Shown one piece after another: positions 40,918 to 64,000 of a DNA stretch of 64,000 bases. The stretch's first letter is position 1. Each line of letters begins with the position of its first letter. A program made the translations under genes and the position numbers. The notes under the pieces are model-generated. The model was not told where the DNA came from, did no database searches, and was given only the letters and a program-made list of their open reading frames with translations. The DNA is taken from contig NZ_CP168030.1 of NCBI RefSeq assembly GCF_041529975.1, forward strand, positions 1,736,001-1,800,000. The letters are read 5' to 3'. The DNA comes from Microbacterium maritypicum. Lineage in GTDB: Bacteria; Actinomycetota; Actinomycetes; Actinomycetales; Microbacteriaceae.

Positions 40918-41015
40918 GAACGCGACCCTACCGACTTCCTTCACCCACGTCACGCCCGCGCGCCCCGACCCGCGCGTCGAAACGAAAATGTAGCACTTGT
41001 TCCAAATTCGATGTA

Positions 41016-41029: not shown

Positions 41030-41074
41030 AGGGTGGCCCGCGTCCGGGCTTGCCATGTTCACAAGGAGGTTGAC

Positions 41075-42412: not shown

Positions 42413-42416
42413 TTTG

Positions 42417-44257: not shown

Positions 44258-44263
44258 TCATCT

Positions 44264-44295
44264 CCCGGCCGGGCCGTATTGACAGCCTGGCCGGG
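44264..44295 (+). terminator. Hairpin between permease and GH1, possible attenuator
   Basis: CCCGGCC (44264-44270) pairs with GGCCGGG (44289-44295) around an 18-nt loop that can add GGC/GCC pairs. There is no T-run. It lies in the 107-nt gap inside the operon and could reduce expression of the downstream glycosidases. Confidence 0.4.
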
Positions 44296-44364
44296 GCACC
44301 ACCCCGAGCCGCCCGCGACCAGCGGATTCTCGGACTCGTCACACAACCGACAGGAACTGTCTTC

Positions 44365-45846: not shown

Positions 45847-45913
45847 GGGACGAACAGTTGTGACATCGGCGCACCACGGGGTGCGCCGCCTGACTAGGGA
45901 TAAGGGAACTGCA

Positions 45914-47770: not shown

Positions 47771-47864
47771 GGAAGTCAGGGTGCCTGCAACCCTGCCGTA
47801 AAGCGGTGGGCTGGCAGCGTCCGCCTTGCGGGGGCGTGTCAGCGAACGCGGCCAGCGGTTCGGG

Positions 47865-47905
47865 GCGGGGTGGGCGAACAGAGAAAGCCTGCTCGCCCAC
47901 CCCGC
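47865..47905. terminator. Perfect 13-bp hairpin between GH3 and GH10
   Basis: GCGGGGTGGGCGA (47865-47877) and TCGCCCACCCCGC (47893-47905) with a 15-nt loop, between convergent genes. Probably bidirectional. Confidence 0.8.
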
Positions 47906-47908
47906 TGA

Positions 47909-49552
47909 TCAATCCACCGTCACGACGACGGGTTCAGATGAGGTTGAGCCGTTCGCGTTCGTGAACGACACGGTCAGCGTGTGCGCTCCGGGGGCGACAC
48001 CTTCCAACGTGAGCGATGCGGTCTGCGCATTCGGGGTCGCTGCGCTCAGCTCGCCAGCCCCGACCTCCACACCATCGAGGAAGAACGCATACGAGGTGGC
48101 GTTGGTTCCCCACCACAGGTTCGCGGTCGCGATGAAGTTCCCATCGCGGTCCCAGTTGTCCGTACTGACCACCGGCTGTGCCGGTGCGGCGTCGGTGACG
48201 ATCACTGTGACAGAAGACGTGTGGGTGACGCCTTCTGAGTTGATGAGCTCGGCGCGGTACGTGTACGAGCCGTTCGCTTTGCCCGAGAACTCCGTTGACG
48301 CCGTCTGGGACGTGACATCCACTGCATTCAGCTGCTGGCCGTCTACAAGAACGTCGTTCTCGTAGAGTCGGTAGTAGCTGCCGGGTGTCCCATGCCACAG
48401 GTTCATCTCGATGTTGTAGTTACCGTCGCGGAGCCCGTTTGCCCACCCTGCAGTGCTCGACAAAACTGCCGCGCTGGGTGCGGATTCGTTGTGGATGTAG
48501 GACTTGAGCGCGTCGCGAACCGCTACGAAGGCCGGCTTCGGATTGAACTCCTCGTCGAACATCGTCGGCTTCGCGCCGGGAAGCCAGGTGTAGAGGTGCT
48601 TGTCCGTGAAGCCCCACACGCTGATGTCGGTCACCCCAGCCGCGAGTGCTTCAGCGACGACATCTCCGTAGATCTGAGCCTGCGAGATGGGGTCGTAGGT
48701 GTGCACATCGAGCTCGGCGATGGTGACCTCGAGTCCGAGCGCGCGATAGTCGTTGATGATGTCGGTGAGCACTCCAGGCGTCGGGCCGACATATGTCTCA
48801 TGCATCTGCAGGGCCACGCCATCGAGGGGGACGCCATCTGCGACCATGCCTGCGACAAGGTCGTAGAGCTCCTGCCGCTTGGCGGGATAGAACTCGACCA
48901 TGTTCTCGTTGATGAAGAGTTTCGCCGTCGGGTCTGCGGCATGCGCGATGCGCAGCGTTTCGGCGACGTAGTCCGGGCCCATGCGCTCATAGAACAGGTT
49001 GTGTTCGAGGCCCTCGCCGCCGAAGGTCGTGAACATCTCCGTGACGATGTCCCACCGATCCATCTTTCCGCTGTAGCGCGGCATGATGGTCTCGAAATGC
49101 TCGACGACGGCGGCCCGGAACTCTGCCGGATCGGTCTTGGCGACCAGATAGTCGGGGTTGAACGACCGGGAGATGCCGCTGTGAGCTTTGACCTCCATGT
49201 CATGCTCCTGTGCGAAGGCAACGAGACGGTCGAGGCCGGCGAAGTCGAAGACGCCCTCCTCCGGTTGCACCATGTTCCACTTGAACTCGTTCTCAGGTGA
49301 CAGGCTGTTGAACTGCTCGGACAGCGTTGCCCCATAACGGGGGTCCGTGAAGTAGTTGGCGGGGCGGTCGTCCGTCGTGGATTCTGAGGCCTTCACCGAA
49401 CCAGAGCCGAAAAGGATGCCTGCTTGATCGGCAAGCTCTCGAATGGTTGGTCCGGAATCGTTGGTGTTGTCTGCCATGGCGGGTGCGGAGGTGATGAGGG
49501 ATGCTCCAAGGAAGAGGGTAGATACAAGGGCGAACGTCTTGCGTGTTCTCAT
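47909..49552 (-). CDS. Secreted divergent GH10 protein (xylanase-like) with two Ig-like repeats
   Basis: 547 residues. A signal peptide covers residues 1 to about 29 (TRKTFALVSTLFLGAS ... APAMA). The catalytic domain (about 45-355) has the GH10 scaffold, with acid/base Glu172 in WDIVTEMF and nucleophile Glu280 in TIAELDVH. Clan GH-A enzymes have Asn before the acid/base (WDVVNE), but Thr171 replaces it. The usual HTLVWH motif is EVKAHSG. Residues about 364-453 and 462-547 are two copies of a chitinase-type Ig-like domain with NLWxG cores. The start is ATG 49552, ahead of the signal. It probably acts outside the cell to provide oligosaccharides for the ABC transporter; whether it is xylan-specific is uncertain. 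Confidence 0.85.
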   Translation of the reverse strand: MRTRKTFALVSTLFLGASLITSAPAMADNTNDSGPTIRELADQAGILFGSGSVKASESTTDDRPANYFTDPRYGATLSEQFNSLSPENEFKWNMVQPEEGVFDFAGLDRLVAFAQEHDMEVKAHSGISRSFNPDYLVAKTDPAEFRAAVVEHFETIMPRYSGKMDRWDIVTEMFTTFGGEGLEHNLFYERMGPDYVAETLRIAHAADPTAKLFINENMVEFYPAKRQELYDLVAGMVADGVPLDGVALQMHETYVGPTPGVLTDIINDYRALGLEVTIAELDVHTYDPISQAQIYGDVVAEALAAGVTDISVWGFTDKHLYTWLPGAKPTMFDEEFNPKPAFVAVRDALKSYIHNESAPSAAVLSSTAGWANGLRDGNYNIEMNLWHGTPGSYYRLYENDVLVDGQQLNAVDVTSQTASTEFSGKANGSYTYRAELINSEGVTHTSSVTVIVTDAAPAQPVVSTDNWDRDGNFIATANLWWGTNATSYAFFLDGVEVGAGELSAATPNAQTASLTLEGVAPGAHTLTVSFTNANGSTSSEPVVVTVD

Positions 49553-49704
49553 GAGTCTCTGATTCTTGTTCTCCGCGCGCAAACCAGCGTCCGCGCACGG
49601 TAGGGAAACTGCAGGGAGGGAACTCGAAAATGTGCGTTGCGGGGCGTCGCAGATCCTTTCTGACTCATCTTTGAGTGGGATCGAGAGCCGCCGGCACACT
49701 CATC

Positions 49705-50277
49705 ATGCTGACGGTTGGAGAAAATGTAGCAGACGTACGGATTTCAAAGAACCGCCTGTTGCGCTCTCACGGCACGGTGGATGAAGTCGCGGGCGGTTAC
49801 GCTCAGCGAATGGATGATGACGGTGTCGGTGACGCTCAGCGTTCGATGAAGATCCTCGTGAACAAGCAGTACGAGGCGCACCAGTTCGCGCTGGTCGACG
49901 TCGCTCAGCTCCGCGCGTGGTGGGAGTCGCCAGTGAATGACGTCATGCGGGATCTCCATCGATGTCGAGCGGAGTGCACCGACCGACATGACCCTGCCTG
50001 TCAGTATGTGCAAGACATCGATGCCCAGGCAGCCGTGGAAGATGCGGCAGCGTATATAAGAAGTCTTCGCGGCGAGGGCGTCATCCCGCTGTTCATCGAC
50101 TCGGCGACCGTCGGTGCCAGGGCTCATGAAAGATCGGCGCAAGCGCGTTTGACGCTGTCCTTGATCCTCGACCCGCTTGTCGTAAATGGGGAGGGGCGAT
50201 TCGGAGAAGGCCGACACCGGTTGCGCACGATTCTGGGTGAGGGTGTTACGGGGGACGTTCCTGTGATCGTCGGGTGA
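49705..50277 (+). CDS. Hypothetical protein with a ParB-like C-terminal motif
   Basis: Up to 190 residues from ATG 49705; later ATGs at 49810 and 49849 are possible. I do not recognise a family. The C-terminal DPLVVNGEGRFGEGRHRLR followed by GVTGDVPVIVG resembles the substrate loop of ParB-like nucleases (LVVDGxHRL ... VPVIV). A cysteine pair pattern (CRAEC, and CQYV) lies mid-protein. Codon choice (tat-ata-aga-agt) is less GC-rich than that of its neighbours, a sign of foreign origin. It stands alone between the two glycosidase modules. The opposite-strand frame over the same bases was judged a shadow. Confidence 0.5.
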   Translation: MLTVGENVADVRISKNRLLRSHGTVDEVAGGYAQRMDDDGVGDAQRSMKILVNKQYEAHQFALVDVAQLRAWWESPVNDVMRDLHRCRAECTDRHDPACQYVQDIDAQAAVEDAAAYIRSLRGEGVIPLFIDSATVGARAHERSAQARLTLSLILDPLVVNGEGRFGEGRHRLRTILGEGVTGDVPVIVG

Positions 50278-50375
50278 CACGCGTCCCGGGTTGTTTCCGC
50301 GACCAAGGATGTGTGCCGCTCATTGCCCGCGGCTCCGGAGAGCACGAGCGAGCTCAGCACGCACGCGACATAGGT

Positions 50376-50404
50376 TTGACGCGCGTCAATATTCGTGATT
50401 ATCT
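50376..50404 (+). promoter_or_regulatory. LacI operator and promoter before GH78
   Basis: TTGACGCGCGTCAA (50376-50389) is a perfect 14-bp palindrome. Its first six bases form the -35 hexamer, with 17 nt to TTATCT (50399-50404) as -10. The same element occurs before GH2 and lacI, so this is very probably a site for the LacI protein encoded at 61713. Confidence 0.75.
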
Positions 50405-50469
50405 GACAGAGTCCTCGTGTCGTTCGCGCGGGGATCACGCTACGGCGAGGCGCACAGAAGGGCCCCGAC

Positions 50470-52956
50470 ATGACCACGACCCACCCCGTCCTTTCTCCCG
50501 AGGCACAGTTCATCTCGGCAGCGAGCGTAAGCGAGGAGGGGGATCCGGCGCCGTACTTCCGCCGAGAGTTCCAGGTGAGCGAGGGCCTGCGCTCGGCCAC
50601 GTTGCGCGTAACCGCACTCGGGATCGTCACCAGCTTCGTGAACGGACGACGGGTGGGCGAGGATGTCCTCGCGCCGGGATGGACCGCGTACCAACACCGC
50701 ATCGCCGTTTCCACGTACGACGTCACCGAACACATCACGCCGGGTGACAACGCGCTCGGAGCGATAGTCGCGGAAGGTTGGGCGGTGGGCAAAATGGGGT
50801 TCGAACTCAAGCGCCATCACTACAGTGACCGCCCCGCTCTGTCGGCTGAGCTGGTGTTGGAGTACGAAGACCGAACCGAAAGCATCACGACGGATCAGAC
50901 CTTCCGCGTCGGTGAAGGCGCGGTCCGCTCCGCGAGTATCTACGACGGTGAGGTGTACGACGCTCGGCTGCAGTCGACCGGATGGGATCTGCCCGGATTC
51001 GACGATTCCGCTTGGGAGCCGGCGACCGTGCATCCGCAGGACGTCTCCGTGGTGACGGCGGACGGCCCACCGCCCATCCGCCGCACCGAGGAGCTGCCTG
51101 TTGCCTCCATCATCTCCACGCCAGGCGGCCGCACGGTCGTGGACTTCGGACAGGTTCTCACCGGGTGGGTCCGCATTCGCGTCAGCGGGGAAGAGGGGCA
51201 GACCGTGGTTCTGCGCCACGCTGAGCTTCTCAATGCGCACGGCGAACCAGAGTACGAGACTCTTCGCACCGCTAAAGCAACCGACACCTACACGCTCAAA
51301 GGCGACGACGAGGAGACCTGGGAGCCGGACTTCACCTTCCACGGTTTCCGATATGTCGATGTCGAGGGCTGGCCTGGTGAGCTCGACGCGGCCGCTCTGA
51401 CCGCGGTGGTCGTCCACAGCGAGATGAACCGCACCGGGTGGCTGGATACCTCGGATAGCTTGCTGAACCGCCTGCACCAGAACGTGGTGTGGTCCATGCG
51501 TGGAAACTTCCTCGGTGTTCCGACTGATTGTCCGCAGCGCGACGAGCGACTGGGTTGGACGGGTGACCTCCACGCCTTCGCGCCGACAGCCGCATTCCTG
51601 TGCGACGTTCGCGGAGTACTCGGATCCTGGATGAAAGACGTTGCTGCCGAGCAACGTGAGAAAGGGTACGTGCCCTTCTACGTGCCGGACGTATCGACGA
51701 CGCCCTCGGCGCCGACCGCGCTGTGGAGCGACGTGGTCGTCGGGTTGCCGTCGATTCTCTACCGGGAATACGGTGACGTCGAAATCCTCCGCCAGAACTG
51801 GCCGGCGATGACAGCCTTCGTGGACCAGGTCGAGGCCCTCCTCGACCCGACGGGTCTGTGGGGATCGGGCTTCCAGTTTGGCGACTGGCTTGACCCGGAT
51901 GCACCGGCTGACGATGCCAGCGGCGGCAAAACGGACCGGCACCTGGTGGCCTCAGCGTGCTTCGTGAAAACGGCGCAACAAATGGCGGATGCCGCGCGCG
52001 CACTCGGACTCGTCGACGAAACAGCGCGGTACACGGAACTGGCCAAGCGCACCCGCACCGCCTTCCGTACCGAGTACCTGGCCCCGTCTGGACGCCTCGT
52101 GAGCGACTCGGCGACGGCCTACGCGCTCGCAATCTGCTACGACCTGCTGGACACCGAGCAGCGAGTGCGTGCCGGTGAGCGGCTAGCGCAGCTCGTTACC
52201 AAGAGTGGCTACACCGTGTCCACGGGTTTCGTGGGAACACCGTTGGTCGCACACGCGCTCTCCGACACCGGGCACGTCGATACCGCCTACCTCCTCCTTA
52301 CGGAGAAGGAGTGCCCCTCCTTCCTCTATCCGGTGACTCAGGGCGCAACGACCATCTGGGAGCGATGGGATGCGGTCCGTCCTGACGGAACTCTGAACTC
52401 CACCGGCATGACCTCTCTCAACCACTACGCGCTAGGATCCATCGCACACTGGATGCACCGTGTCATCGGCGGTCTTGAGGCCGTGGAGCCTGGATACCGT
52501 CGTATGCGTATCGCCCCGCAGCCAGGTGGGGATCTCACGTCTGCACTCCTCGTGCACGACACGGTCCTCGGCGAGGTCCGCATCGCATGGAACATCACCG
52601 AGGGACAGGTCTCGATGACGGCGACGGTGCCCGAGGGAGCCTCTGCGGAGGTCGTGCTGCCCAACCATCCGGATGGTCTCGAACTGGAGGTGGGGGCGGG
52701 AACGCACACCTGGTCCTATGGCGTCGGCGTCGAGGAGCACGAGGACTATACGTTCGACACGTCTCTGAAGACCCTGGCCGAGGATCGCACGGCGTGGCGA
52801 GCGCTGACTCAGGTCTTCAAGAAGCACCTTCCGTTCCCCATCGATGCATCAGGGCCTGACGCAGCGCACGTCAATCTCAACATCCTGCTGGCCGCAGTCC
52901 CGCACAGCACCCCGGAGCTCGAACGAGACCTCCGTGAGACGTTGGCCGCGCTGTGA
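50470..52956 (+). CDS. GH78 alpha-L-rhamnosidase
   Basis: 828 residues with the full GH78 domain order: an N-terminal lectin-like beta-sandwich (YFRREFQV ... TSFVNGRRVGEDVLAPGWTAYQ), a second beta domain, a CBM67/rhamnosidase concanavalin-like domain (VVDFGQVLTGWVRIRV), an (alpha/alpha)6 barrel and a C-terminal beta domain. The catalytic-domain signature TDCPQRDERLGWTGD is at about 350, and TTIWERWD at about 627. No signal peptide, so cytoplasmic. The ATG is at 50470 and the stop overlaps the GH43 start by 4 nt. It should remove terminal alpha-rhamnose from plant glycosides or pectin fragments. Confidence 0.95.
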   Translation: MTTTHPVLSPEAQFISAASVSEEGDPAPYFRREFQVSEGLRSATLRVTALGIVTSFVNGRRVGEDVLAPGWTAYQHRIAVSTYDVTEHITPGDNALGAIVAEGWAVGKMGFELKRHHYSDRPALSAELVLEYEDRTESITTDQTFRVGEGAVRSASIYDGEVYDARLQSTGWDLPGFDDSAWEPATVHPQDVSVVTADGPPPIRRTEELPVASIISTPGGRTVVDFGQVLTGWVRIRVSGEEGQTVVLRHAELLNAHGEPEYETLRTAKATDTYTLKGDDEETWEPDFTFHGFRYVDVEGWPGELDAAALTAVVVHSEMNRTGWLDTSDSLLNRLHQNVVWSMRGNFLGVPTDCPQRDERLGWTGDLHAFAPTAAFLCDVRGVLGSWMKDVAAEQREKGYVPFYVPDVSTTPSAPTALWSDVVVGLPSILYREYGDVEILRQNWPAMTAFVDQVEALLDPTGLWGSGFQFGDWLDPDAPADDASGGKTDRHLVASACFVKTAQQMADAARALGLVDETARYTELAKRTRTAFRTEYLAPSGRLVSDSATAYALAICYDLLDTEQRVRAGERLAQLVTKSGYTVSTGFVGTPLVAHALSDTGHVDTAYLLLTEKECPSFLYPVTQGATTIWERWDAVRPDGTLNSTGMTSLNHYALGSIAHWMHRVIGGLEAVEPGYRRMRIAPQPGGDLTSALLVHDTVLGEVRIAWNITEGQVSMTATVPEGASAEVVLPNHPDGLELEVGAGTHTWSYGVGVEEHEDYTFDTSLKTLAEDRTAWRALTQVFKKHLPFPIDASGPDAAHVNLNILLAAVPHSTPELERDLRETLAAL

Positions 52957-54728
52957 CGAATCGAGGCGACATCAACGTCTTCTGCAACCCCCTCGATCTC
53001 GCATACCGGTACCAGGACTTTGCCCGCGGACCGTTGCGCGCGGTCTTCCGGGAGGCGGCCGACCCCTCGGTGGTGCGGTTCCAGGACCACTTCTATATGT
53101 TCGCGTCGATGAGTGGCGGGTTCTGGCATTCGGCTGATCTGCGTCAATGGCATTTCGCCGCCGCGCCTGACCTGCCCGCAGGGGACTACGCGCCAGACGT
53201 CCGCGAAGTCGACGGGGCGCTCATCGTCACGGCGTCGAGGCGGAAGCCCGGTAGTCCCATCTTCCGGTCGCGCGACCCTCTCGGCGAAGGCTTCGAGCAG
53301 ATCAGCGAAAGTGCCTTCGCGTGGTGGGACCCGAACCTGTTCCAGGACCTTGATTCTCGAACGTATCTGTACTGGGGGTGCTCGAACAAAGAGCCGTTGC
53401 GAGGCGTCGAAGTGTCTCCGGACTCTCTCCGCCCGCTTGGGGAACCCGTCGACGTCCTGTCGGGTGACATCTCTGCGTACGGCTGGGAGCGAAACGGCGA
53501 AAACAACCGGATGGCTCCTCCCGTGACGCTGGGCGAGAAGTTCAGTGCGAAAGCCTTCGGTACGCACAGCCCGTCTCCATATCTGGAAGGCGCATGGATG
53601 ACGCGCCACAAAGACACGTACTACTTCCAATACGCAGGGCCGGGCACCGAATACAACGTGTACGCCGACGGGTATTACACGGCTCCATCCGCCCTCGGAC
53701 CATTCACTCCGTCGCCGCACAACCCGTTCTCGTCCAAGCCCGGCGGATTCATCACCGGCGCCGGCCACGGCAGCACCTTCCAGGACGCGTACGGGAACTG
53801 GTGGCACGCAGCCACTATGCGTATCTCCGTCAATCACCGGTTTGAGCGCCGCCTGGGTATCTTCCCCGCGGGGTTCGACGATGACGGCGTGCTCTTCTGC
53901 AATCAGACCTTCGGCGACTATCCGACGGCTATCCCCGACGGTCCAGCAGACCCATGGACAGCGAGTACGGGATGGATGTTGCAGTCGTACCGTGCGCGTG
54001 TGGCCGCGAGCTCTGCAACTCCAGTCCATGGGCCGGAACTGGCTGTAGATGAAGACGTTCGCACCTGGTGGGTGGCTGGCGATGAGAGCCCAGGGGAGAC
54101 GCTGACCCTCGACCTCGAGCAACCGCGTGAGGTGCATGCCATCCAAATCAACACTGCTGACCACCAGCTCGCTCGCCGGAAGCCCCGCCGGCCCCGCCGC
54201 GGTCCGGACGAGCAGCCTGTCGCACTGCGGGCCGTCCATCCGCAGGACCATCCGGTGCGGTACACCCTGGAGGTATCCGTCGACGGGGACGCCTGGTCGA
54301 TGCTGCACGACGGACGCACCGATGCATCGGATCGCCCGCATCGTCTCCTCGTCCTGGAACACCCGCAACTGGTGCGTTTCGTGCGCATCACGGGCGTGTC
54401 GTCGCCCTGGAACGCGCCTCTCGCGCTGAGCGGCGTCCGGGTGTTCGGACACCACACGGTGCCGGCACCGCCTCAAGCTGAAGCGACCGCGCGACGGACC
54501 GGTCCTCTCGACGCTGAAGTGACCTGGAAGGCTGTGCCTGAGGCTGATGGCTACAACGTCCGGTATGGCTTGCGCCCGGACCGGCTGTATCACTCCTGGC
54601 AGGTACTCGCGGCCGAGTCGCTCACCCTCTCTACCCTCAACGCCGGGGAAGAGTACTGGGTCGCCGTGGACGCGTACGGTCCTGGTGGAGTTACGGCTGG
54701 CGACCCAGTACTCATCGCAGACGAGTAA
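52953..54728 (+). CDS. GH43-like glycosidase with discoidin (F5/8C) and FnIII domains
   Basis: 591 residues. The five-bladed propeller of GH43 covers residues 1 to about 330, and the catalytic triad can be placed as Asp37 (AADPSVV), Asp82 (YAPDV) and Glu212 (YLEGAW). Residues about 350-495 have a discoidin-like sandwich, and about 500-590 an FnIII domain (VTWKAVPEADGYNVRYG). It starts with GTG in a GTGA overlap with GH78. No signal peptide, although carbohydrate-binding add-ons usually appear on secreted enzymes. Arabinofuranosidase or xylosidase activity is usual for the family; the substrate here is not known. Confidence 0.88.
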   Translation: MTNRGDINVFCNPLDLAYRYQDFARGPLRAVFREAADPSVVRFQDHFYMFASMSGGFWHSADLRQWHFAAAPDLPAGDYAPDVREVDGALIVTASRRKPGSPIFRSRDPLGEGFEQISESAFAWWDPNLFQDLDSRTYLYWGCSNKEPLRGVEVSPDSLRPLGEPVDVLSGDISAYGWERNGENNRMAPPVTLGEKFSAKAFGTHSPSPYLEGAWMTRHKDTYYFQYAGPGTEYNVYADGYYTAPSALGPFTPSPHNPFSSKPGGFITGAGHGSTFQDAYGNWWHAATMRISVNHRFERRLGIFPAGFDDDGVLFCNQTFGDYPTAIPDGPADPWTASTGWMLQSYRARVAASSATPVHGPELAVDEDVRTWWVAGDESPGETLTLDLEQPREVHAIQINTADHQLARRKPRRPRRGPDEQPVALRAVHPQDHPVRYTLEVSVDGDAWSMLHDGRTDASDRPHRLLVLEHPQLVRFVRITGVSSPWNAPLALSGVRVFGHHTVPAPPQAEATARRTGPLDAEVTWKAVPEADGYNVRYGLRPDRLYHSWQVLAAESLTLSTLNAGEEYWVAVDAYGPGGVTAGDPVLIADE

Positions 54729-54757
54729 CGGCGCGTCGGCATCACCGCCGCACATCA

Positions 54758-54797
54758 AAGAAGGCGGTCCTACGCGAAACGCGGGGACCGCCTTCTT
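54758..54797. terminator. Terminator between GH43 and GH1
   Basis: AAGAAGGCGGTCC (54758-54770) pairs with GGACCGCCTTCTT (54785-54797), with CGCGAAACGCG able to form an inner stem. It lies between convergent genes and has T-rich ends in both directions. Confidence 0.88.
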
Positions 54798-54804
54798 CGC
54801 TCAC

Positions 54805-55974
54805 TCAGAGCGCGTTTGCGCGGGCTACAGCACCGAGCCAGTCCAGGCTCGGCTTCGGGTGACGCTCGAAGGTCTCCCGGTCTACTGCGACCAGTCCGAA
54901 CGTGGGACCCCAGTGGCCCCACTCGAAGTTGTCGAGCAGGCTCCAATGGAGGTAGCCGCGTACGTCGATTCCCTCGGCGATGGCCGACGACAGGTCTGCG
55001 AGCGCCTGCGATGTGTAAGCGATCCGGGTGTCATCGTGCGCCGTGGCGATGCCGTTCTCGGTGACGAGGATGGGCACGTCAGGGCCGACGACCTCGCGAG
55101 CGTGACGGACGGCGATACCGAGAGCGTCGGGACGATACGCCCAGCCCATCAGAGTGTTGTCGTCGGCTGCCGGGTGCGGAACGATGCCGTCTGCATCCAC
55201 AGGCTGGCTCGTGTACGACTGCGTCCCGACGAAATCATCATCGCGAGATACCTCAAGGTACTTGTCCTCGATGAGGTACTGCACCTCGGCGTACTTCTCC
55301 TCGTTGCCGGGCGTCGAGGTCAGCGCCTGGTTGCCAATGGTCCAGCCAACTCGAGCCTTCGTGAGACGGAGAACCACGGCCTTCGCGGCACGGTGGGCCG
55401 CAATCAGCACATCGCCGATCTCCTGATCAGGGAGACCGTTCTTCGGGTACTCGTTTCCCAACGCGACCTGTCGCTGGCCGCCATGAGTGATGGCCAAGAT
55501 GTTGGGCTCGTTGATGGTGATGACCCACTCGACGTCCTCAAGAATCGTGCAGGCCTGCTCGACATATCGCTTGAAAGCGTCGACAGCACCTTCCCCCAGC
55601 CATGCCCCGCGGTCTTCGAACCACAGCGGGTGGGTGAAGTGGTGAAGAGTGACGATGGGCTCTAGTCCCAGCTCGCGCGCGGTGAGGATCATGCGTCGAT
55701 AGTGCGCGAGCTCCGCACGAGAGAACTGGCCAGGGAGCGGTTCGATGCGCGACCACTCGAGGCTGAACCGGTATGCGGTGAAACCGCGGTCCGATAGCAG
55801 CTGCATGTCCTCGCGGTACCGGTGATAGCTGTCCAGCGCGTCCCCGCTGGACTGGACACCATAGTCGGCGGCCACCTGCTCGAGCCGCCACCAGTCGTTG
55901 TTGAGATTGTTGCCTTCGACCTGATGCGCGGCTGTGGCTGCGCCCCAGAGAAAGTTCTCGGGGAATTCTGACAT
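54805..55974 (-). CDS. GH1-family glycosidase, compact type
   Basis: 389 residues, shorter than the 493-residue GH1 above. It has FLWGAATAAHQVEGNN at the start, the acid/base in VITINEPN (about residue 157) and the nucleophile in ILVTENGIA (about 297). It ends with SLLDNFEWGHWGPTFGLVAVD. The length matches the short GH1 branch. The start is ATG 55974 with AAGGATGG upstream. It is the last gene of the GH2-GH3-SDR-GH1 operon, 23 nt after the SDR gene. Beta-glucosidase or beta-galactosidase specificity cannot be fixed. Confidence 0.92.
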   Translation of the reverse strand: MSEFPENFLWGAATAAHQVEGNNLNNDWWRLEQVAADYGVQSSGDALDSYHRYREDMQLLSDRGFTAYRFSLEWSRIEPLPGQFSRAELAHYRRMILTARELGLEPIVTLHHFTHPLWFEDRGAWLGEGAVDAFKRYVEQACTILEDVEWVITINEPNILAITHGGQRQVALGNEYPKNGLPDQEIGDVLIAAHRAAKAVVLRLTKARVGWTIGNQALTSTPGNEEKYAEVQYLIEDKYLEVSRDDDFVGTQSYTSQPVDADGIVPHPAADDNTLMGWAYRPDALGIAVRHAREVVGPDVPILVTENGIATAHDDTRIAYTSQALADLSSAIAEGIDVRGYLHWSLLDNFEWGHWGPTFGLVAVDRETFERHPKPSLDWLGAVARANAL

Positions 55975-55997
55975 GTCGGAACCATCCTTCGTTCTGC

Positions 55998-56786
55998 TCA
56001 CAGCACTGAAGCCATCTGCTTCGCGATGAGGTTCGTGGTCCAACGCGGGGCCAACCTCACCAACCGGTCGAGGGCCTTCGCGTCATTGCCGACCACGATT
56101 CGGAATGAACCGCGCTCGATGCCGCGAACGATGGCGACGCCTGCATCACGTGGTGTCGTGGCTCGAACCTTCTTCGATCCCGCATCAAGCATCGCTACGC
56201 CGGAGTTCTTGCTGATCTCGGTCGAGATGTTCCCGGGGTAGATGGCGCTCACCTGCACGTTCTCGCCGCGGAGCTCCTGATACAAGCCTTCGGTGTACTG
56301 CTTGACGGCGCCCTTGCTGGCCCCGTAGAACGTCTGTCCTGCAAAGGCGACGAGAGCCGACAAGCTGGACATGTTCGTCAGCGAGGCTTCCGGCCGCTGT
56401 CGGAGTGTGGGTAGGAACGCGCGGCACATGTTGACGGTGCCCCAGTAGTTCACTGCGAACACGCGCTCGTGCTCCTCCTGGGTGAGATCGGAGGAGTGGG
56501 CGAAACGGTGAATGATTCCGGCGATGTTGACCAGGCCGTCCACGTGACCGTGTACGGCTTCGATGGCGCCGGGCAGCTTGGCGGCGCCGGCGGCGTCAGT
56601 GACGTCGCCCCGGTGGATACTGACGCGGTTCGGGACGATGGCCAGAGCCGCAGTTTGGGCGAGTGCCACTTCGTCACGGTCGATAGCCGCGACACGCGCG
56701 CCTTTTCGTACCAGCTCGAGTGCGATCTCGCGTCCCATGCCGTTTCCAGCCCCGGTTACGGCGAACACTTTTCCTTCGATCTGCAT
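55998..56786 (-). CDS. Short-chain dehydrogenase/reductase in the glycosidase operon
   Basis: 262 residues, classical SDR. The cofactor loop is VTGAGNGMGREIAL (about 10-23) and IDRDEVA suggests NAD(H) preference because Asp ends strand 2. The catalytic Ser is in TNMSSLSALVAF (about 140), Tyr and Lys in YGASKGAVKQY (about 154-158). Complete. It is between GH3 and GH1 in a tight operon (14 and 23 nt gaps), so it probably acts on a released sugar or aglycone. An SDR among glycosidases suggests metabolism of the non-sugar part of a plant glycoside, which is only a hypothesis. Confidence 0.9.
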   Translation of the reverse strand: MQIEGKVFAVTGAGNGMGREIALELVRKGARVAAIDRDEVALAQTAALAIVPNRVSIHRGDVTDAAGAAKLPGAIEAVHGHVDGLVNIAGIIHRFAHSSDLTQEEHERVFAVNYWGTVNMCRAFLPTLRQRPEASLTNMSSLSALVAFAGQTFYGASKGAVKQYTEGLYQELRGENVQVSAIYPGNISTEISKNSGVAMLDAGSKKVRATTPRDAGVAIVRGIERGSFRIVVGNDAKALDRLVRLAPRWTTNLIAKQMASVL

Positions 56787-56800
56787 ATCAACTCCGATGA

Positions 56801-59008
56801 TCAGTGTGTACGGTCGGCGAGCAGCTGCAGCGCCTCGAGCGGCACGGGCAGGCCCGAGATGCGGACGAACTGCCGCATCGTCATAGAGCGCACCTGAGCC
56901 ATCTGTTCAGCGGGCACTTCTACGGACGCGAACCCCAGGGTCTGGTTCGTCTCCTCCCCGATGGAGGGGTGGTCCAGCCATGCGGCAATCGCGCTGTCGA
57001 GCGTGACTGCGCTTGCGGACTTATCGCCTTCAAGCTCAATCGCTACTTCTCCACAGACACTGGATGCGTCGTCCGCAAGCTGCACGCGATATTCGCCCTC
57101 CTTCACACTCCAGTCGGCGCGCTCCACGTCCCAGTAGGCGAAACTGCGCCTATCGAGTTCGAACCGCACTTCCCGCGACTCTCCAGGATCGAGAGGGACC
57201 TTCTCGAAAGCCCGCAACTCGCGCGTGGGCCGACGCACGTCACCCGCATCGGTGGAGACGTACACCTGCACCACGTGCGCGCCAGCCCGCTCGCCCGTGT
57301 TGCGGACGCTCACAGTGACGGTCGCGGAGTCGGACCCCGTCACCTCGACGGAGTCGAGCGAAGAATCGAACGAGCTGTAGGAGAGCCCGTACCCGAACGG
57401 GTAGCGCACCGGCGTCCCTGAACTGGAGAAGTAGCGGTATCCAACGAGCACTCCTTCGCCGTACCGAACGTGGCCCTGCTCCCCGGGGAAGTTCACCCAC
57501 GACGGGTGATCCTCGAGGCGCAGCGGGATCGTCTCCGCCAGCCGTCCGGATGGGTTGACCGCTCCCGTGAGGATGCGAGCAATGGCGCGTCCGCCGCCCT
57601 GGCCGAGTACGAAAGCATCGAGGATCGCATCGACGTCGTCGTGCCAGCCCTCCAGGCTCACGACACCTCCGTGGGAGAGCACGACGACCGTGCGCGCAGC
57701 AGTGGCGGCGACCCGACGGATCAGGTGGATCTGATCTGCGGGGAGGTCCAGCGTGTTCCTGTCGAAGCCCTCGGACTCCTGTTCCTCTCCAAGGCCCGCG
57801 AAAACCACCGCGACATCAGCGCGACGCGCGACGGCGATGGCCTCGTCTGCAAGAGACTCGGCGTCCGGGCTGCCGACGAGACTGTACCCGGCTGCGTAGG
57901 TGACGGTCGATCCCTCACGCTCGAGCAGCGTTCGCAGCTCGGCGAGAGGCTCATCAATCTTCGTGGCGTTGACGTTCGCGCTCCCACCGCCCTGGAAACG
58001 GGGCTCGGTCGCGAGAAGTCCGATGACAGCGACGTCCACTCCCTTGGGAAGCGGCAGGACGTCGTGCTCGTTACGGAGAAGTACTGGGCAGCCTTCAGCC
58101 ACGTCCTGCGCGAGGGCATGGTGGACGTCCACGTCAATCTCGACTCGCTCGGGGCGGGGTCGGGCCGCCAAAGCGGTCAAGAGAGCGACGGCAGCATCGA
58201 CGGCGTCCATGCTGAGCGCCCCGGATTCTGCCGCCGCACGCAACTGCTCGATGTGCTCGGGCTCGGCGGGCATGGCGAGGTCGAGGCCCGCCTGCACGGC
58301 GGCGACCGGGTCGGTGACGGAGCTCCAGTCCGAGACGACGACGCCGTCAAAGCCCCACTCGTCACGCAGTACCTGAGTCAACAGCCACGGGTTAGCCCAG
58401 GCGTGAACACCGTTGATCTTGTTGTACGCCGCCATCACCGAGCCCGGTCGAGCGTCCCGCACCACGCGCTCGAAAGCGGGGAGGTAGATCTCGCGCAGCG
58501 TCCGCTCGTCAACGTCCGAGCTGATGGTCTGCCGGTTTGTCTCTTGATTGTTCGCCGCAAAATGCTTGACGGACACCGACGGGCCCTCGGCTTGCAGGGC
58601 CGTGGTGTACGCAGCGCCGAGGACCCCAGAGATGAGCGGATCCTCTGAGTAGTACTCGAAGTTCCGCCCGCACAATGGGGTGCGCTTGATGTTCACCCCA
58701 GGTCCGAGCACGACATCCACGCCCTGCGCGACGGCCTCGCGACCGACCGCGGTGCCGACGCGTGCAGCCAGCTCCGGGTCCCAGCTGGAGCCGACGGCCA
58801 CACCAGGAGGGAAGCAGGTGGCGGGATCACTGGCGAAGATCGCCAGATTGTCGTGCTGGCCGGACTGGTGTCGCAACCCGTACGGGCCGTCAGCGAGGAA
58901 GAGTGGCCGGATGCCGGCGGAAGGCACCGAGTGGGTCTCCCAGAACGTGGCGCCTGACAGTAGCGCGAGCTTGTCATCCAGCGGGATGTCCGGGGTGGAA
59001 TCAGACAT
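56801..59008 (-). CDS. GH3 beta-glucosidase with FnIII-like domain
   Basis: 735 residues in the full-length GH3 order: N-terminal barrel, sandwich domain, FnIII-like C-terminal domain. The nucleophile is Asp227 in VVVSDWSSV. GPGVNIKRTPLCGRNFEYYSEDP and SVKHFAANNQETNR are diagnostic. The sandwich domain has AVVFAGLGEEQESEGFDR, and an FnIII-like portion lies at about 560-640. The start is ATG 59008 with AGGAGA 6 nt upstream. No signal peptide. It is the second gene of the LacI-controlled operon, 20 nt after GH2. Confidence 0.95.
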   Translation of the reverse strand: MSDSTPDIPLDDKLALLSGATFWETHSVPSAGIRPLFLADGPYGLRHQSGQHDNLAIFASDPATCFPPGVAVGSSWDPELAARVGTAVGREAVAQGVDVVLGPGVNIKRTPLCGRNFEYYSEDPLISGVLGAAYTTALQAEGPSVSVKHFAANNQETNRQTISSDVDERTLREIYLPAFERVVRDARPGSVMAAYNKINGVHAWANPWLLTQVLRDEWGFDGVVVSDWSSVTDPVAAVQAGLDLAMPAEPEHIEQLRAAAESGALSMDAVDAAVALLTALAARPRPERVEIDVDVHHALAQDVAEGCPVLLRNEHDVLPLPKGVDVAVIGLLATEPRFQGGGSANVNATKIDEPLAELRTLLEREGSTVTYAAGYSLVGSPDAESLADEAIAVARRADVAVVFAGLGEEQESEGFDRNTLDLPADQIHLIRRVAATAARTVVVLSHGGVVSLEGWHDDVDAILDAFVLGQGGGRAIARILTGAVNPSGRLAETIPLRLEDHPSWVNFPGEQGHVRYGEGVLVGYRYFSSSGTPVRYPFGYGLSYSSFDSSLDSVEVTGSDSATVTVSVRNTGERAGAHVVQVYVSTDAGDVRRPTRELRAFEKVPLDPGESREVRFELDRRSFAYWDVERADWSVKEGEYRVQLADDASSVCGEVAIELEGDKSASAVTLDSAIAAWLDHPSIGEETNQTLGFASVEVPAEQMAQVRSMTMRQFVRISGLPVPLEALQLLADRTH

Positions 59009-59028
59009 GGTTTCTCCTGGGTTGTGGG

Positions 59029-61476
59029 TCACGCGAGGCGTGGCGCCTCGTGGCTGACAGATGCGTCGGATGAGATGGCCCGCAGGGTGGCGGTCGTCTC
59101 CCCGTGGTGGCGAGAGCGCGCGGTGATTCGCACCTCGCCCGTCTCCCCGGTCGAGCGAACAATTGCAAGCGCCCGCCCTCGGTAGGTCGTCGTGCGCGCC
59201 GAGAGGAACGAGTCCACAGGCGCCGGATTCGCAGTGCCAAACCCGACGAGTTCGGCGGGTCCGCTGACTTCGAGGTCAACGTGGTCATCGTCGAGCATCT
59301 CGACGACACCGTCCGCGTCGGCCAGCTCAACGTGCACGAAGGCGAGGTCGTCGCCGTCGGCGAGAAGCGTGTCTGCTTCGGGACGCAACTGCACGCTCAC
59401 GTCGGACGCAGAACTCAGCTCAGTGCGGCTGACCTCTATGCCATCTCGGTAAGCGATAGCGCGCACGGTTCCGCTCTCCCACCGAGTAGTGAACGAGAAG
59501 CGGAACTCTGTGTTCCGTCCGGCACGCCGACGCCCGATAGAGCGATCACCCACTACCAGCTCGATCTCGTCGGCGGTGCTGTACACCGTGATCTCCGCGC
59601 GCTTTCCTTCGCTGCCGCGCCATGCCCAGCTTTCCACCGCGTCCGTGACACGCCACGCTGACCGGACGTAGGGTTGGCCGGCGCGGTCGAGTGGGCGAAC
59701 AGTGATGACGGGCGCGTCCAGCACACCCCAAGCCGCCTGAGCGAGGCGAAGAGACGCGTCGGGCCGACCAGTGAGATCGAACATCCCGGGGCCCGCGACA
59801 ACATACGGGTACGGTTTCGCCAGTCCGGCCTTCTTCCCTGGCACCCACACGGCCACTCCGGCCTCGCCGAGATACTCCCAGCCCGCCCACACGAAGTCGC
59901 CGATCACGGCGGGGATCTCCTGAGCAAGGCGCCACGCCTTCGCAACATCGCTGGGTAGTGTCTCTGAGCCCAAGATGACGCGGTGCGGGTAGCGTTGCGC
60001 ATCGCCTTTGTAGCGTGCGATCCCGTAGTTGTATCCGGCGACGTCGACCGTGGCGAACGCGTCGCGGGAGGCGCGGTCTGCGCGCGGGAGGCGGGAGACG
60101 ACGCTCATTAGCCGGCCGATGTGATTGATCATCACATTCGCTTCGGTGCTTCCCGCCATCGCCTCCTCGGAGCGATCTCCCTTCGCGCTGTAGGGCGACG
60201 CGTTCATCGAAACCATCGCGTTCAGGAAGAGATTGATGGCTACGGTGACCGGCCTAGTGGGGTCCGCGGTGTGGAAGTACTCCGTGATCTCGCGCGACAG
60301 CTCAACGCCCGCGGCGGTGGCTGTCTCCGGGATCTCGTTACCCGAGGCGTACATGATGACGCTGGCGTAGTTGCGGTCTTTCGCAATGAGCGCGTCAGCA
60401 TCGTGGCGCCATGTGTCACGGAATCGGTCCGAGTGGTCGAACCGTGACTTGCGCACGAACCAGTAGTCGGCGAGCTCGTCCAACACGTACATCCCGAGTT
60501 CGTCACACGCGTCGAGAAGATCCCGCGATAGCGGATTGTGGGCGCTGCGAATCGCGTTGAATCCCGCGTCTTTGAGGATACGGATCCGCCGGTACTCAGC
60601 TGCGCGATGGGTCGCCGCACCGAGGAGGCCGTTGTCATGGTGGATGCAGGCTCCGGCGAGGAGTACTCGCTTGCCGTTGATGCGAAGCCCTTGGTGAGCG
60701 TCGACACTCACCGTTCGAAGCCCGACTCTGCCTCTCCACTCGTCGAGAACGTCGTCGGCTGACTCTGCGCTCACGAGTAGCTCGTAGCGGAAGGGCGTGT
60801 CTGCGCTCCACGGGCGGGGATCAGCGACGTCGAGATGAATAGCGCCGGACGCGCCGTGAAGCAGCCCCTGCGCGACGGTCTCGCCGTTCGCGCTCAGTCG
60901 AGCGGTCACGCGTGTCGAAGCCGGCGCCTCCCCGGACATGCGCACATCAACGCGCACACCGGCGCGTGCGCTCTCGATCTCGGTGGTCGTCACTCGCACG
61001 GAGTCGAGGCCGAAGTGTGTCAGCGGTCGAGTGATCACGTGGACGGGCCTGTACAGTCCGGAGCCCGGATACCATCGCTCTGCGGGCTGATCACGGTGGT
61101 GGACGATGACGCGGATGGCGTTGACCTCGCCGCGTCTCACGACGTCCGTGATTGTCAGCTCTGTCTCGGTGTACCCGCTTCGCACGGTCCCGACGTTCTC
61201 GCCGTTGACCATGACTTCTGCGTCACCCTGGACGCCTTCGAAGACGAGCACGACATCCCCGTCTCCGTGCGGGGCGCTCCACTGTGTCACGTAGTCGTAG
61301 TCGCCCCCGCGGAACCAGCCGGTCTCGGCGCCGCCGCTCGCCTCTGGGTCACGCCCAGCTCGCAGCATCGCATCATCGGGGAGGCGGACGGTGACCTCGG
61401 TCCCATCGTCCGAAGTAACACGCCACGTGGACAACAGCGTGTCGGACCGCGCAGCGGTGGGGCGCATCAAAGTCAT
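59029..61476 (-). CDS. GH2 beta-galactosidase-type glycosidase
   Basis: 815 residues. A jelly-roll sugar-binding domain, an Ig-like domain and a TIM barrel with acid/base Glu381 in ASGNEIPE and nucleophile Glu505 in LGSETLPSD. Beyond the barrel is a DUF4982-type domain and a further Ig-like part (SVQLRPEADTLLADGDDLAF). WYPGSGLYRPVHVI is the typical GH2-N motif. The start is ATG 61476 with GAGG six bases upstream; ATG 61467 is an alternative. No signal peptide. It is first in the GH2-GH3-SDR-GH1 operon, and its promoter carries a LacI operator. Beta-galactosidase is the usual activity, though other beta-glycosidases share this layout. Confidence 0.93.
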   Translation of the reverse strand: MTLMRPTAARSDTLLSTWRVTSDDGTEVTVRLPDDAMLRAGRDPEASGGAETGWFRGGDYDYVTQWSAPHGDGDVVLVFEGVQGDAEVMVNGENVGTVRSGYTETELTITDVVRRGEVNAIRVIVHHRDQPAERWYPGSGLYRPVHVITRPLTHFGLDSVRVTTTEIESARAGVRVDVRMSGEAPASTRVTARLSANGETVAQGLLHGASGAIHLDVADPRPWSADTPFRYELLVSAESADDVLDEWRGRVGLRTVSVDAHQGLRINGKRVLLAGACIHHDNGLLGAATHRAAEYRRIRILKDAGFNAIRSAHNPLSRDLLDACDELGMYVLDELADYWFVRKSRFDHSDRFRDTWRHDADALIAKDRNYASVIMYASGNEIPETATAAGVELSREITEYFHTADPTRPVTVAINLFLNAMVSMNASPYSAKGDRSEEAMAGSTEANVMINHIGRLMSVVSRLPRADRASRDAFATVDVAGYNYGIARYKGDAQRYPHRVILGSETLPSDVAKAWRLAQEIPAVIGDFVWAGWEYLGEAGVAVWVPGKKAGLAKPYPYVVAGPGMFDLTGRPDASLRLAQAAWGVLDAPVITVRPLDRAGQPYVRSAWRVTDAVESWAWRGSEGKRAEITVYSTADEIELVVGDRSIGRRRAGRNTEFRFSFTTRWESGTVRAIAYRDGIEVSRTELSSASDVSVQLRPEADTLLADGDDLAFVHVELADADGVVEMLDDDHVDLEVSGPAELVGFGTANPAPVDSFLSARTTTYRGRALAIVRSTGETGEVRITARSRHHGETTATLRAISSDASVSHEAPRLA

Positions 61477-61517
61477 CGTCGTCCTCAATCTGGTGCGAGG
61501 CCGAGGGGCCTCATCTG

Positions 61518-61547
61518 CATCAAATCACGAACATTGACGCGTGTCAA
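61518..61547 (-). promoter_or_regulatory. LacI operator and promoter before the GH2 operon
   Basis: On the minus strand, TTGACACGCGTCAA (61547-61534) supplies the -35 TTGACA. A 17-nt spacer and TTTGAT as -10 follow. The stretch from the operator to CGTGATT is near-identical to the GH78 promoter at 50376. Confidence 0.75.
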
Positions 61548-61645
61548 AGCCGATGATTCCACGCGCCGGAGAGGAGTCTGGGGGAGGGGCCTCGATGATT
61601 CCGTGACGGCGGCTTCGAAACCGGGGCGGTGACGGGGCTAGGATG

Positions 61646-61674
61646 TTGACACGCGACAATGGCGCGTGGAGATT
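61646..61674 (+). promoter_or_regulatory. LacI operator and promoter before lacI (autoregulation)
   Basis: TTGACACGCGACAA (61646-61659), one base off perfect symmetry in the outer arms. The -35 TTGACA is inside it, with GAGATT (61669-61674) 17 nt on as a weak -10. It suggests the regulator represses its own gene. Confidence 0.65.
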
Positions 61675-61712: not shown

Positions 61713-62672
61713 ATGACCAACAGTGCGGACGTGGCTGCGAGAGCAGGGGTCTCTAGGTCGACCGTGAGCCAGATTCTGAACGGCCACGGACACCGGTTTC
61801 GCCCGGACATGGTCGACCGCGTGCAGTCAGTCGCGCGAGAGCTCGGGTATCGACCGTCCATCGCAGGTCGAGCCCTCGCCAGGGGGACCAGCGACATCGT
61901 CATCACGCTCCTGCCCAATATCTCGCTCGGTCCGCGCCTGCGGGAACTCATCGACAGGGTCACTGACGAACTCGCACAAGCGGGCCGCACTAACCTCATC
62001 AGGTTGTCCTCTGGCGACGCGCAGATCGACGAAGCCGTCCTTGCGTTACGGCCCGCGGGGCTATGGAGCGTGGCGCCGCTGGCGCCAACCCAGCGCGCTC
62101 GCCTGGACGAAGCGAACGTGGCAGTAGTTGATCCGCCGCGTGAGTACCAGGAAGCCATCGACCGTGAAATCGGCGCGATGCAAGCACGTCACCTCATCGA
62201 ACGGGGCTACACAGCCGTGGCTATCGCAACTCCCGAGGCGCTGCGCGAGCAGCCTTACGCGACGGCCCGTGAGCGAGGAGCGCTGGAGGAATGTCAGCGG
62301 GCGGGCGTCGCGGTGTTGCCGACCATCCGCCTTTCCCTCGAGCGGGGCAGTAGTCAGCAGACGGCCGAGATGCTGCGGGGGCAGAGCGTCGGCATTGCAG
62401 CGTACAACGATGATGTCGCGCTTGCCGTCATGTCGGCAGCCATTCGCGCCGGGCGCAACGTGCCGGACGATATCGGAGTCATCGGGGTGGACAACACGAT
62501 TGCGTCAGGGGTGACGGAACCGTCGCTGACCACAATCGACATCGATGTGCGCTTCAGCGCCCACGAGATCGTGCGGGCGCTTCTCGACGGGCCGGAGGTC
62601 TTCACCCTCGACGAGCTTGACACCATGAAGTCGTCGGTCTCGGTGGTCGACGGAGGTAGCACGGCGCGCTGA
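61713..62672 (+). CDS. LacI-family transcriptional regulator
   Basis: 319 residues. The N-terminal HTH (about 1-48) is SADVAARAGVSRSTVSQILNG followed by the hinge-helix region ELGYRPSIAGRALARG. The periplasmic-binding-like effector domain follows, with GIAAYNDDVALAVMSAAIRA and DDIGVIGVDNTIASGVTEPSLTTI typical of the C-terminal lobe. The start is ATG 61713 with AAGGAGA 6 nt upstream. It is divergent from the GH2 operon. It likely represses GH78-GH43, the GH2 operon and itself through the shared operator, and its inducer should be a sugar released by these enzymes. Confidence 0.94.
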   Translation: MTNSADVAARAGVSRSTVSQILNGHGHRFRPDMVDRVQSVARELGYRPSIAGRALARGTSDIVITLLPNISLGPRLRELIDRVTDELAQAGRTNLIRLSSGDAQIDEAVLALRPAGLWSVAPLAPTQRARLDEANVAVVDPPREYQEAIDREIGAMQARHLIERGYTAVAIATPEALREQPYATARERGALEECQRAGVAVLPTIRLSLERGSSQQTAEMLRGQSVGIAAYNDDVALAVMSAAIRAGRNVPDDIGVIGVDNTIASGVTEPSLTTIDIDVRFSAHEIVRALLDGPEVFTLDELDTMKSSVSVVDGGSTAR

Positions 62673-62725: not shown

Positions 62726-64000
62726 TTAGACCTCGGTGACCTGCGTCAGGAGCGTCTGCGGCAGATCGGCTGGCAGAGCGCCTTGGCTGTACATCACGAG
62801 TTGATCGAGCGTGAGACCGATGGCCTGCGCCAGTGTCTCTTCGTCGGCGCCGTTCAGGGCGTCAGACAACACTGCCCGTCCCCGGGGGTGACTCAACCAG
62901 TCCCCGATGGTGCTCGCGGAGGTCAACGCCGGAACCGCCACCTCCACGCGCGCAACCTCGACGACATCGGTCAGCTCGCCATCCACAGTGACGGTGCTCC
63001 AGAGCGCTCGGTTACGAGAGCAATGGTGAACTTCGCCACTCAGCTCGACACTGCCCTTCAGGGGCGTGGATGCGGACGACCCGCCGATGAAGAGGCGGAG
63101 GGCTCCCGGTTCGACCACCCAGCCTTCCCGGCGGTCCCACAACGCGAACATCTCCGAGGGGATCTCGACCAGCACCTGTCGCTCTTCACCCGCGCGGAGG
63201 AAGACTCGCTGGAAACCCAGCAGCACGCGAGATCGACGAACGACTCGCGCCACCAGGTCGCGACCGTACACCTGAACGACTTCGTCGCCGTCTCGGTCGC
63301 TCGTGTTCGAAACGGTGAATGTGCAGCGGATCACGCCGTCGGTTCCGACTTGGGGTGCCTGGAATGCGAGATCACGGTATTCGAACTGGCTGTAGCTGAG
63401 TCCGTGTCCAAAGGGGAACACCGCGCGTGCCGAGCCGTCGACATAGCTGTCGTTGCTCTGCAGCGTCCTCCAGTAGGGAACGGGCGCGGAGCCAACATTC
63501 TCCAGCATGGCGATAGGGAGCCTGCCTGCCGGGTTCACGTCGCCGAAAAGCACGGCGGCGGTCGCGGCTCCGGCTTCCTCTCCGCCGAGCCAGGCAGAGA
63601 CGATTGCCGGAGCACGGTCTGCGAGCCAGCCCAGCACGTACGGGCGCGCATGGCTGAGCACGACGATGGTCGGTGTGCCCGTGTCCAGGACTGCTTCCAC
63701 CAGCTCGCGCTGCACGCCCGGTAGCTCGCATGTAGCGCTGTCGAGTCCCTCTCCGACTGTCCCGAAGCCGTTGATGCCAGCCTGGTCGCCGACAACAAGG
63801 ACGGCGAGATCGGAGCGTCGGGCTGCGTCGACGGCGGCCGGGATGTCTGAGCGGTCCATGCGCTCGACCGGGCACCCCACTTCGTGCAACACGGTTGCCG
63901 CGTCACCAGCGCGCTCGCGGATTCCCTGGAGGAAGGTGACGAGCGGCACGGTGTCCACGAGGAGATCGGCGTCGTCGGCGCCGGTCTTGCCACGCAGCTC
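62726..64000 (-). CDS. GH3-family glycosidase, C-terminal part (start beyond window)
   Basis: The frame is open to the right edge, giving 424 visible residues. The sandwich domain has DLAVLVVGDQAGINGF (the GH3-C GDxxG region), IVVLSHARPYVLGWL and AGRLPIAMLENVG. SYVDGSARAVFPFGHGLSYSQF leads to an FnIII-like domain (IRCTFTVSNTSDRDGDEVVQVYG). An extra C-terminal ~90 residues contain WLSHPRGRAVLSDAL. The catalytic N-terminal barrel and nucleophile lie outside the window. It converges on lacI, with the hairpin at 62677 between them. Confidence 0.92.
   Translation of the reverse strand, partial: ELRGKTGADDADLLVDTVPLVTFLQGIRERAGDAATVLHEVGCPVERMDRSDIPAAVDAARRSDLAVLVVGDQAGINGFGTVGEGLDSATCELPGVQRELVEAVLDTGTPTIVVLSHARPYVLGWLADRAPAIVSAWLGGEEAGAATAAVLFGDVNPAGRLPIAMLENVGSAPVPYWRTLQSNDSYVDGSARAVFPFGHGLSYSQFEYRDLAFQAPQVGTDGVIRCTFTVSNTSDRDGDEVVQVYGRDLVARVVRRSRVLLGFQRVFLRAGEERQVLVEIPSEMFALWDRREGWVVEPGALRLFIGGSSASTPLKGSVELSGEVHHCSRNRALWSTVTVDGELTDVVEVARVEVAVPALTSASTIGDWLSHPRGRAVLSDALNGADEETLAQAIGLTLDQLVMYSQGALPADLPQTLLTQVTEV

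Follow-up and report, generated by a model that had tools for sequence, protein, structure and literature searches.

A candidate local LacI regulon of glycosidase and transporter genes in Microbacterium maritypicum

The window analysed here is a 64,000-nucleotide stretch of Microbacterium maritypicum (positions 1736001-1800000 of the complete chromosome, a single contig of 3,895,529 bases), in which a 14-bp palindrome, TTGACRCGYGTCAA, recurs before glycosidase genes and before a gene of the lacI family. A local, possibly autoregulated LacI repressor very probably controls four transcription units through this palindrome, and the kind of system is a classical local LacI regulon. The repressor (61713-62672) would bind at four places, before the glycoside hydrolase (GH) genes GH78-GH43, before GH2-GH3-SDR-GH1 (SDR, short-chain dehydrogenase/reductase), before lacI itself, and before MFS-GH35-GH3 (MFS, major facilitator superfamily). 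The left operator arm doubles as the -35 hexamer in the three structural promoters, so that the repressor, once bound, would keep RNA polymerase out; repression would be lifted by a sugar or glycoside set free from substrate that has been imported or broken down in part, and enzymes, transporter, and regulator would be induced together on release. From the sequence we infer binding, repression, inducer, and substrate, and the reading is carried by the sites, their rarity, their conservation, the promoter spacing, and the co-occurrence with this LacI.

Three 14-mers had been named in the original prediction, and all of them were found with the letters, positions, and strands given there. Operator A (TTGACGCGCGTCAA, 50376-50389, plus strand) supplies with its first six bases the -35 hexamer of the GH78 promoter, operator B (TTGACACGCGTCAA, 61547-61534, minus strand) does the same for the GH2 promoter, and operator C (TTGACACGCGACAA, 61646-61659, plus strand) lies 53 bases from the lacI ATG. 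The single pattern proposed for the three holds for the GH78 and GH2 copies but not for the lacI copy, which departs from TTGACRCGYGTCAA at one position, so that the window contains two exact sites and one with a single mismatch. A scan of the whole genome for the pattern revealed a further exact copy, operator D (TTGACACGCGTCAA, minus strand), before the MFS gene at 68538-68551 in window-extended coordinates (L006:9038-9051; chromosome 1804538), 4.5 kb past the window end; the supposition that the module lacks a transporter is therefore wrong. Allowing at most one mismatch, the genome holds five places (three exact, two with one mismatch) versus none for the reversed pattern, and four of the five cluster within 18.2 kb around lacI. 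At wider tolerance only background is returned: up to two mismatches give 21 places genome-wide versus 28 for the control, the 16 additional places being background, and up to three mismatches give 10 sites in the window against 10.8 expected, which is chance level. The one-mismatch place at C1:2884014, which lacks the central CG and is near the start of an open reading frame (ORF) for UDP-glucose dehydrogenase, was not taken as an operator, and neither was a one-mismatch place in Microbacterium oxydans (C22:4032).

Operators A, B, and D conform to the even palindrome with central CG, C carries one more changed base, and all four have T at NT-6 of either half. According to the part of Ravcheev et al. 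2014 (PMC4052901) that was available, local LacI regulons for carbohydrate use likewise have even palindromes with a central CG, more than 75% of their sites lie 140-30 bp before the start codon, 72% are autoregulated, and their targets serve sugar use; the form and position of the present sites fit this family pattern. The main text of that paper contains no word beginning with "Microbacteri".

Among 366 genomes of the genus, a LacI of at least 70% identity is encoded in four, and exactly the same four contain three exact sites apiece; in the remaining 362, one exact site was counted in 14 genomes, two in a single genome (G388), and none in 347. If the two properties were independent, such a coincidence would have a probability of 1/C(366,4) = 1.4e-9. 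Two further entries, G421 and G556, were taken as the same genomes as G299 (M. oxydans BEL4b) and G300 (Microbacterium sp. EYE_78) in view of identical site coordinates. The LacI of the window is 100% identical to that of M. oxydans BEL4b (L035), 71% to that of EYE_78 (L036), and 74% to that of G467. In all four genomes the GH78 copy reads TTGACGCGCGTCAA and the GH2 and MFS copies read TTGACACGCGTCAA. The operators before GH78, GH2, and MFS are identical at 14 of 14 positions in EYE_78 and G467, while in the 40 bases upstream, compared without gaps, only 8-16 match between the window and either genome. The same-species genome G495 has neither a LacI match at E 1e-50 nor a site. In a sample of 299 genomes of the family, the present genome included, two others have one exact site each. 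Five genus genomes (L084, L087, L090, L091, and L092) share an orthologous-looking single exact site with a similar flank, within 1.5 kb of which no homolog of this cluster was found.

The -35 and -10 assignments were made from sequence only. A -35-like hexamer at the palindrome edge is no independent evidence, because the palindrome itself contains TTGAC; the fixed distance from the operator to a TGN-TTNNNT box, however, is independent evidence. All 12 structural promoters (GH78, GH2, and MFS in four genomes) follow TTGACR-N14-TGN-TTNNNT with 17-nt spacing, a box pattern that was derived from nine promoters and afterwards seen in the three of G467. TGN ahead of the -10 hexamer is the known extended -10 arrangement. 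In the window the GH78 box is TGA-TTATCT (50396-50404, plus strand), with its hexamer 17 nt after the -35 hexamer, and the GH2 box is TGA-TTTGAT (61519-61527, minus strand); both fit TGN-TTNNNT in four of four genomes. Across these genomes the GH78 boxes are TGA-TTATCT, TGG-TTATCT, TGT-TTACCT, and TGA-TTGCCT, the GH2 boxes are TGA-TTTGAT (two genomes), TGA-TTCGAT, and TGT-TTCCAT, and the MFS boxes are TGG-TTCCCT and TGC-TTCCCT (two genomes each). For comparison, a match to TGNTTNNNT was counted at 4 of the 1898 AT-rich positions of the window, L036, and L098 taken together, and its frequency over all positions of these sequences is 0.014%. A match of the GH78 and GH2 promoters past the operator had also been noted, and the common tail TCAATRTTCGTGATT is indeed present; it is best read as the -10 region and not as a longer operator, because the box is conserved at fixed spacing. 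The lacI promoter is different: the hexamer 17 nt downstream is GAGATT, without TG. Hence the claim of a -35 box with a 17-nt spacer at all three sites stands for GH78 (TTATCT) and GH2 (TTTGAT), each hexamer following TGA, and not for lacI. As judged from these spacings, overlap with the -35 box is well supported for the three structural promoters and not for lacI. G467 has a second, degenerate site with two mismatches, TTGACGCGCAACAA, before its lacI.

The regulator has a LacI helix-turn-helix (HTH) domain (PF00356, 45.6 bits, cut-off 27) and a Peripla_BP_3 domain (PF13377, 95.8 bits, cut-off 26.5). Its recognition helix is SRSTVSQ with Gln at AA-20, and no other of the genome's 33 LacI-family proteins has Gln there (HTHs above the Pfam cut-off were counted, a 34th match being below it; the helix of L146 was read by hand). 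Two other LacI proteins of this genome, with Asn (L131 and L135), also show T at NT-6 in their upstream palindromes. As far as it was available, the study by Camas et al. 2010 (PMC2978694) links AA-20 to NT-6, Arg going with G, in a code restricted to TVSR proteins (1490 of 2639 domains). The present regulator has the HTH type, the 14-bp half-site geometry, and the AA-20/NT-6 link in common with that class, but it combines Gln with T where the TVSR class has Arg with G, and "TVSQ" is absent from the main text of that paper; judged by its helix, it is outside the Arg class that the published code covers.

In 37 homologs the 250 bp preceding the gene start were compared: a site with at most two mismatches is present in 21 of 26 with Gln or Glu, versus none of 11 with other residues (Fisher 5e-6; p-values here ignore relatedness). 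When 250-bp stretches were drawn at random from the fetched loci, without removal of the true sites, 55 of 4000 contained such a site. The residues were grouped by eye and recounted by script, and L069 and L035 (both with the LacI of L011), L036 (genome same as L071), and L040 (weak match) were left out. A relaxed pattern, derived from these same sites, was present in 24 of 26 Gln/Glu homologs versus 1 of 11 others. Paired relaxed operators, 30-36 bp or about three helical turns apart, were observed in the 250 bp before lacI in 15 of the 26 (15 loci among L013-L020, L023, L025, L029, L073, L074, and L076-L078). A GH2 homolog is present in 20 of 24 lacI loci of 20 kb, always on the strand opposite to lacI and with starts less than 600 bp apart in 12; the four loci without it (L037-L040) are from Arthrobacter, Frankia, and metagenome-assembled genomes, and their LacI helices have no Gln. 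Homologs of GH1, MFS, GH3, and GH78 recur in these lacI loci as well.

Several findings weigh against a regulon of this form. The promoters of the window and of M. oxydans are nearly identical, which reduces the 12 promoters to about nine independent cases; the -10 boxes match TATAAT poorly; the operator of lacI itself carries its mismatch; and in EYE_78 lacI lacks an operator of its own and shares that of GH2, which begins 59 bp ahead of it. Outside the genus, the best site of the closest homolog elsewhere in the family (G150, 50% identity) has three mismatches, and L158 (52% identity, outside the family) has no site under six mismatches. Among 25 additional homologs from the wider order (25 of 54 rows, 5 having been tested earlier and 24 being without a locus), a site with at most two mismatches was found in two of seven with Gln (one of six outside the family) versus 2 of 18 others. 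Moreover, two exact copies stand in front of a non-orthologous LacI with Tyr in G388, and one exact copy is upstream of a non-orthologous LacI with Ala (L177). Because the exact 14-mer precedes these Tyr and Ala LacI genes, the motif is not a property of this regulator alone, and in view of them and of the weak association in the wider order the strict rule that Gln at AA-20 means this operator was rejected; Gln at AA-20 goes with the operator within the family and only weakly in the wider order. In G388 the two copies of TTGACGCGCGTCAA are 42 bp apart (L102:9024-9079), between an ABC binding-protein gene and the LacI with helix SEAAVSY, which is followed by a gene that we take to be GH13-like.

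The G388 and L177 loci speak for the possibility that another LacI-type regulator of the genome binds the palindromes and that the local lacI is a neighbour by chance. This is improbable, since the presence of three sites tracks this LacI exactly over 366 genomes, no second LacI of the genome shares the helix, and a near-copy of the site precedes lacI itself. It is also hardly probable that the LacI acts as an activator, or depends on a co-repressor like PurR, instead of being an inducible repressor: the weak -10 boxes could need help, and ligand logic of the PurR type exists in the family according to the available part of PMC4052901, but the operator covers the -35 box, where an activator would block polymerase, and the targets are catabolic. 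That the repeats are no operators but only strong -35 elements or a copied promoter, as the near-perfect -35 of the left arm and the match of the GH78 and GH2 promoters beyond 14 bases might suggest, is very improbable, since the right arm, of no use to a -35 element, is equally invariant (14 of 14), the palindrome stays where the flanks differ in EYE_78 and G467, and the pattern hardly ever occurs in the rest of the genome or in the family sample. Overall, the earlier observations are partly confirmed, and their interpretation as a LacI-type operator shared within a self-contained regulon is supported by the rarity of the site, its conservation in four genomes, its co-occurrence with this LacI in 366 genomes, and the uniqueness of Gln at AA-20; binding itself we infer.

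The inducible regulon would then consist of four units with nine target genes and lacI, which is larger than the "at least six catabolic genes plus the regulator" first proposed; operon membership was deduced from gene spacing and strand. On the plus strand, the GH78 alpha-L-rhamnosidase gene (50470-52956; Pfam Bac_rhamnosid6H 1.4e-120, plus three other rhamnosidase domains) overlaps by four bases the GH43-F5/8C gene (52953-54728), placed in the same operon. The minus strand carries the GH2 gene (59029-61476, ATG at 61476), the first of its operon, followed by a GH3 gene (56801-59032), whose best NCBIfam match is exo-alpha-(1->6)-L-arabinopyranosidase (783 bits, under the cut-off of 1300), an SDR oxidoreductase gene (55998-56786; Pfam adh_short 5.9e-45), and last a short GH1 beta-glucosidase gene (54805-56043; Pfam GH1 8.8e-62) with an uncertain start codon. 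The lacI-family repressor gene (61713-62672, plus strand) encodes 319 amino acids and is preceded by AGAAGGAGACC, which resembles a ribosome-binding site. The unit of operator D, on the minus strand, comprises the MFS transporter gene (67106-68440, window-extended) downstream of the operator, a gene for a GH35/DUF5597 protein, and a GH3 gene (to 65335 window-extended) whose 3' part (62726-64000) closes the window. In EYE_78 no GH35 match was found between MFS and GH3.

G495 lacks a segment of 49,013 bases, 38595-87607 (window-extended; C1:1774595-1823607), which carries the whole regulon; the G495 sequence passes straight from window position 38594 to 87608 (window-extended), the two ends overlapping by 4 bases. 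Compared with M. oxydans, identity is 97% over the island parts 40217-52238 and 61742-79580, as against 83-86% in the longer pieces of the adjoining backbone and 90-93% in the short ones. This contrast favours recent transfer, as far as identities can indicate it, and loss in G495 plus recombination would be an alternative account. No integrase was found among the island ORFs scanned, which were only part of those on the island. The regulon thus appears to be part of a mobile DNA segment. Eight island genes with no site of fewer than three mismatches in the 300 bp before them, namely GH10, the ABC binding protein, GH1 (44365), MMPL, the second GH35, both steroid dehydrogenases, and the GH2 of L151, were excluded from the regulon on that ground.

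The island glycosidases inside the regulon are GH78, GH43, GH2, GH1, GH35, and two GH3, and those without an operator are GH10, GH1, GH3, a second GH35, and a second GH2. Such a set would fit a branched plant glycoside that contains rhamnose along with several further sugars, and it probably serves to strip sugars from plant glycosides. The nearest solved structures of the short GH1 are 8kap (SGR_2426) and 9u98, followed by 4r27. In the accessible part of PMC12369401, SGR_2426 prefers sophorose, and 4r27 is BGL167, an enzyme of Microbacterium sp. Gsoil167 with activity on glucosides derived from ginsenoside Rb1. Beyond the window, the island carries two steroid-type FAD dehydrogenase genes without an operator before them. 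One (L006:18384-20000, cut at the locus end and continuing into L151) matches the 3-ketosteroid-delta-1-dehydrogenase model NF009479 with 861.6 bits (cut-off 793), and the nearest solved structure of the other (L006:16722-18335) is 4at0, a 3-ketosteroid-delta4-5alpha-dehydrogenase. According to the portion of PMC10653915 that was available, a delta4-dehydrogenase acts after deglycosylation in the saponin pathway of Sphingobium, and GH10 is among the ginsenoside-cleaving families. GH2, GH3, and GH78 were found in one locus here, and steroid-ring dehydrogenases lie beside GH genes; the absence of homologs of these dehydrogenases from the fetched loci of EYE_78 and G467 counts against a steroidal cluster. 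A steroidal glycoside as substrate is a lead and not a result, with roughly even odds as we read the gene content.

Clusters for deglycosylation of steroidal glycoalkaloids in Arthrobacter and Glutamicibacter (PMC9597252, accessible in part) have GH2, GH3, and GH78 in common with this locus, which differs in also having GH43, GH1, GH35, SDR, and MFS; the comparison was of gene families, not of sequence orthology, and the main text of that paper does not contain the word "regulator". RhmR of Chloroflexus aurantiacus (PMC3870299, accessible in part) is also a predicted LacI regulator of a rhamnosidase operon with an uptake system; however, it belongs to a distant bacterium, transport there is by RhmEFG and here by one MFS protein, and the LacI rhamnose motifs of that paper are 20-bp palindromes. 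The 14-mers, in three spellings, had no match in the literature collection searched, and neither this regulon nor a set of Gln-class operators was found described in the literature searched, which is no proof of absence. A broader proposal must be called tentative and rather doubtful: that this is a horizontally moved, self-regulated steroidal-glycoside island whose repressor, of a TVSQ class (Gln at AA-20, T at NT-6, C at NT-3) outside the TVSR code, is the switch for an oppositely oriented GH2 in many genera of the family. A motif found by eye has become a testable regulon with named members, the transporter included, which offers an induction assay for the enzyme substrates; it provides natural LacI proteins, with candidate sites, that do not belong to the Arg class from which the LacI recognition code was derived, and it suggests that regulator, operators, and enzymes move between species as a unit.

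Finally, several neighbours of the regulon were also recorded. The GH10 gene (47909-49699) is divergent to GH78 and has no operator, and EYE_78 has a 77% homolog of it adjoining GH78. An ABC sugar transporter (binding protein and two permeases) with GH1 and GH3 occupies 40997-47770 on the island, also without an operator; in G467, homologous DNA with GH1 and GH3 directly precedes the MFS unit. The MMPL gene of the present genome (L006:10934-13129) has no operator. In EYE_78 (L066:7645-14192) an MMPL transporter gene comes after GH78-GH43 in the same direction, and the regulon of that genome may, to judge from this arrangement, include MMPL.

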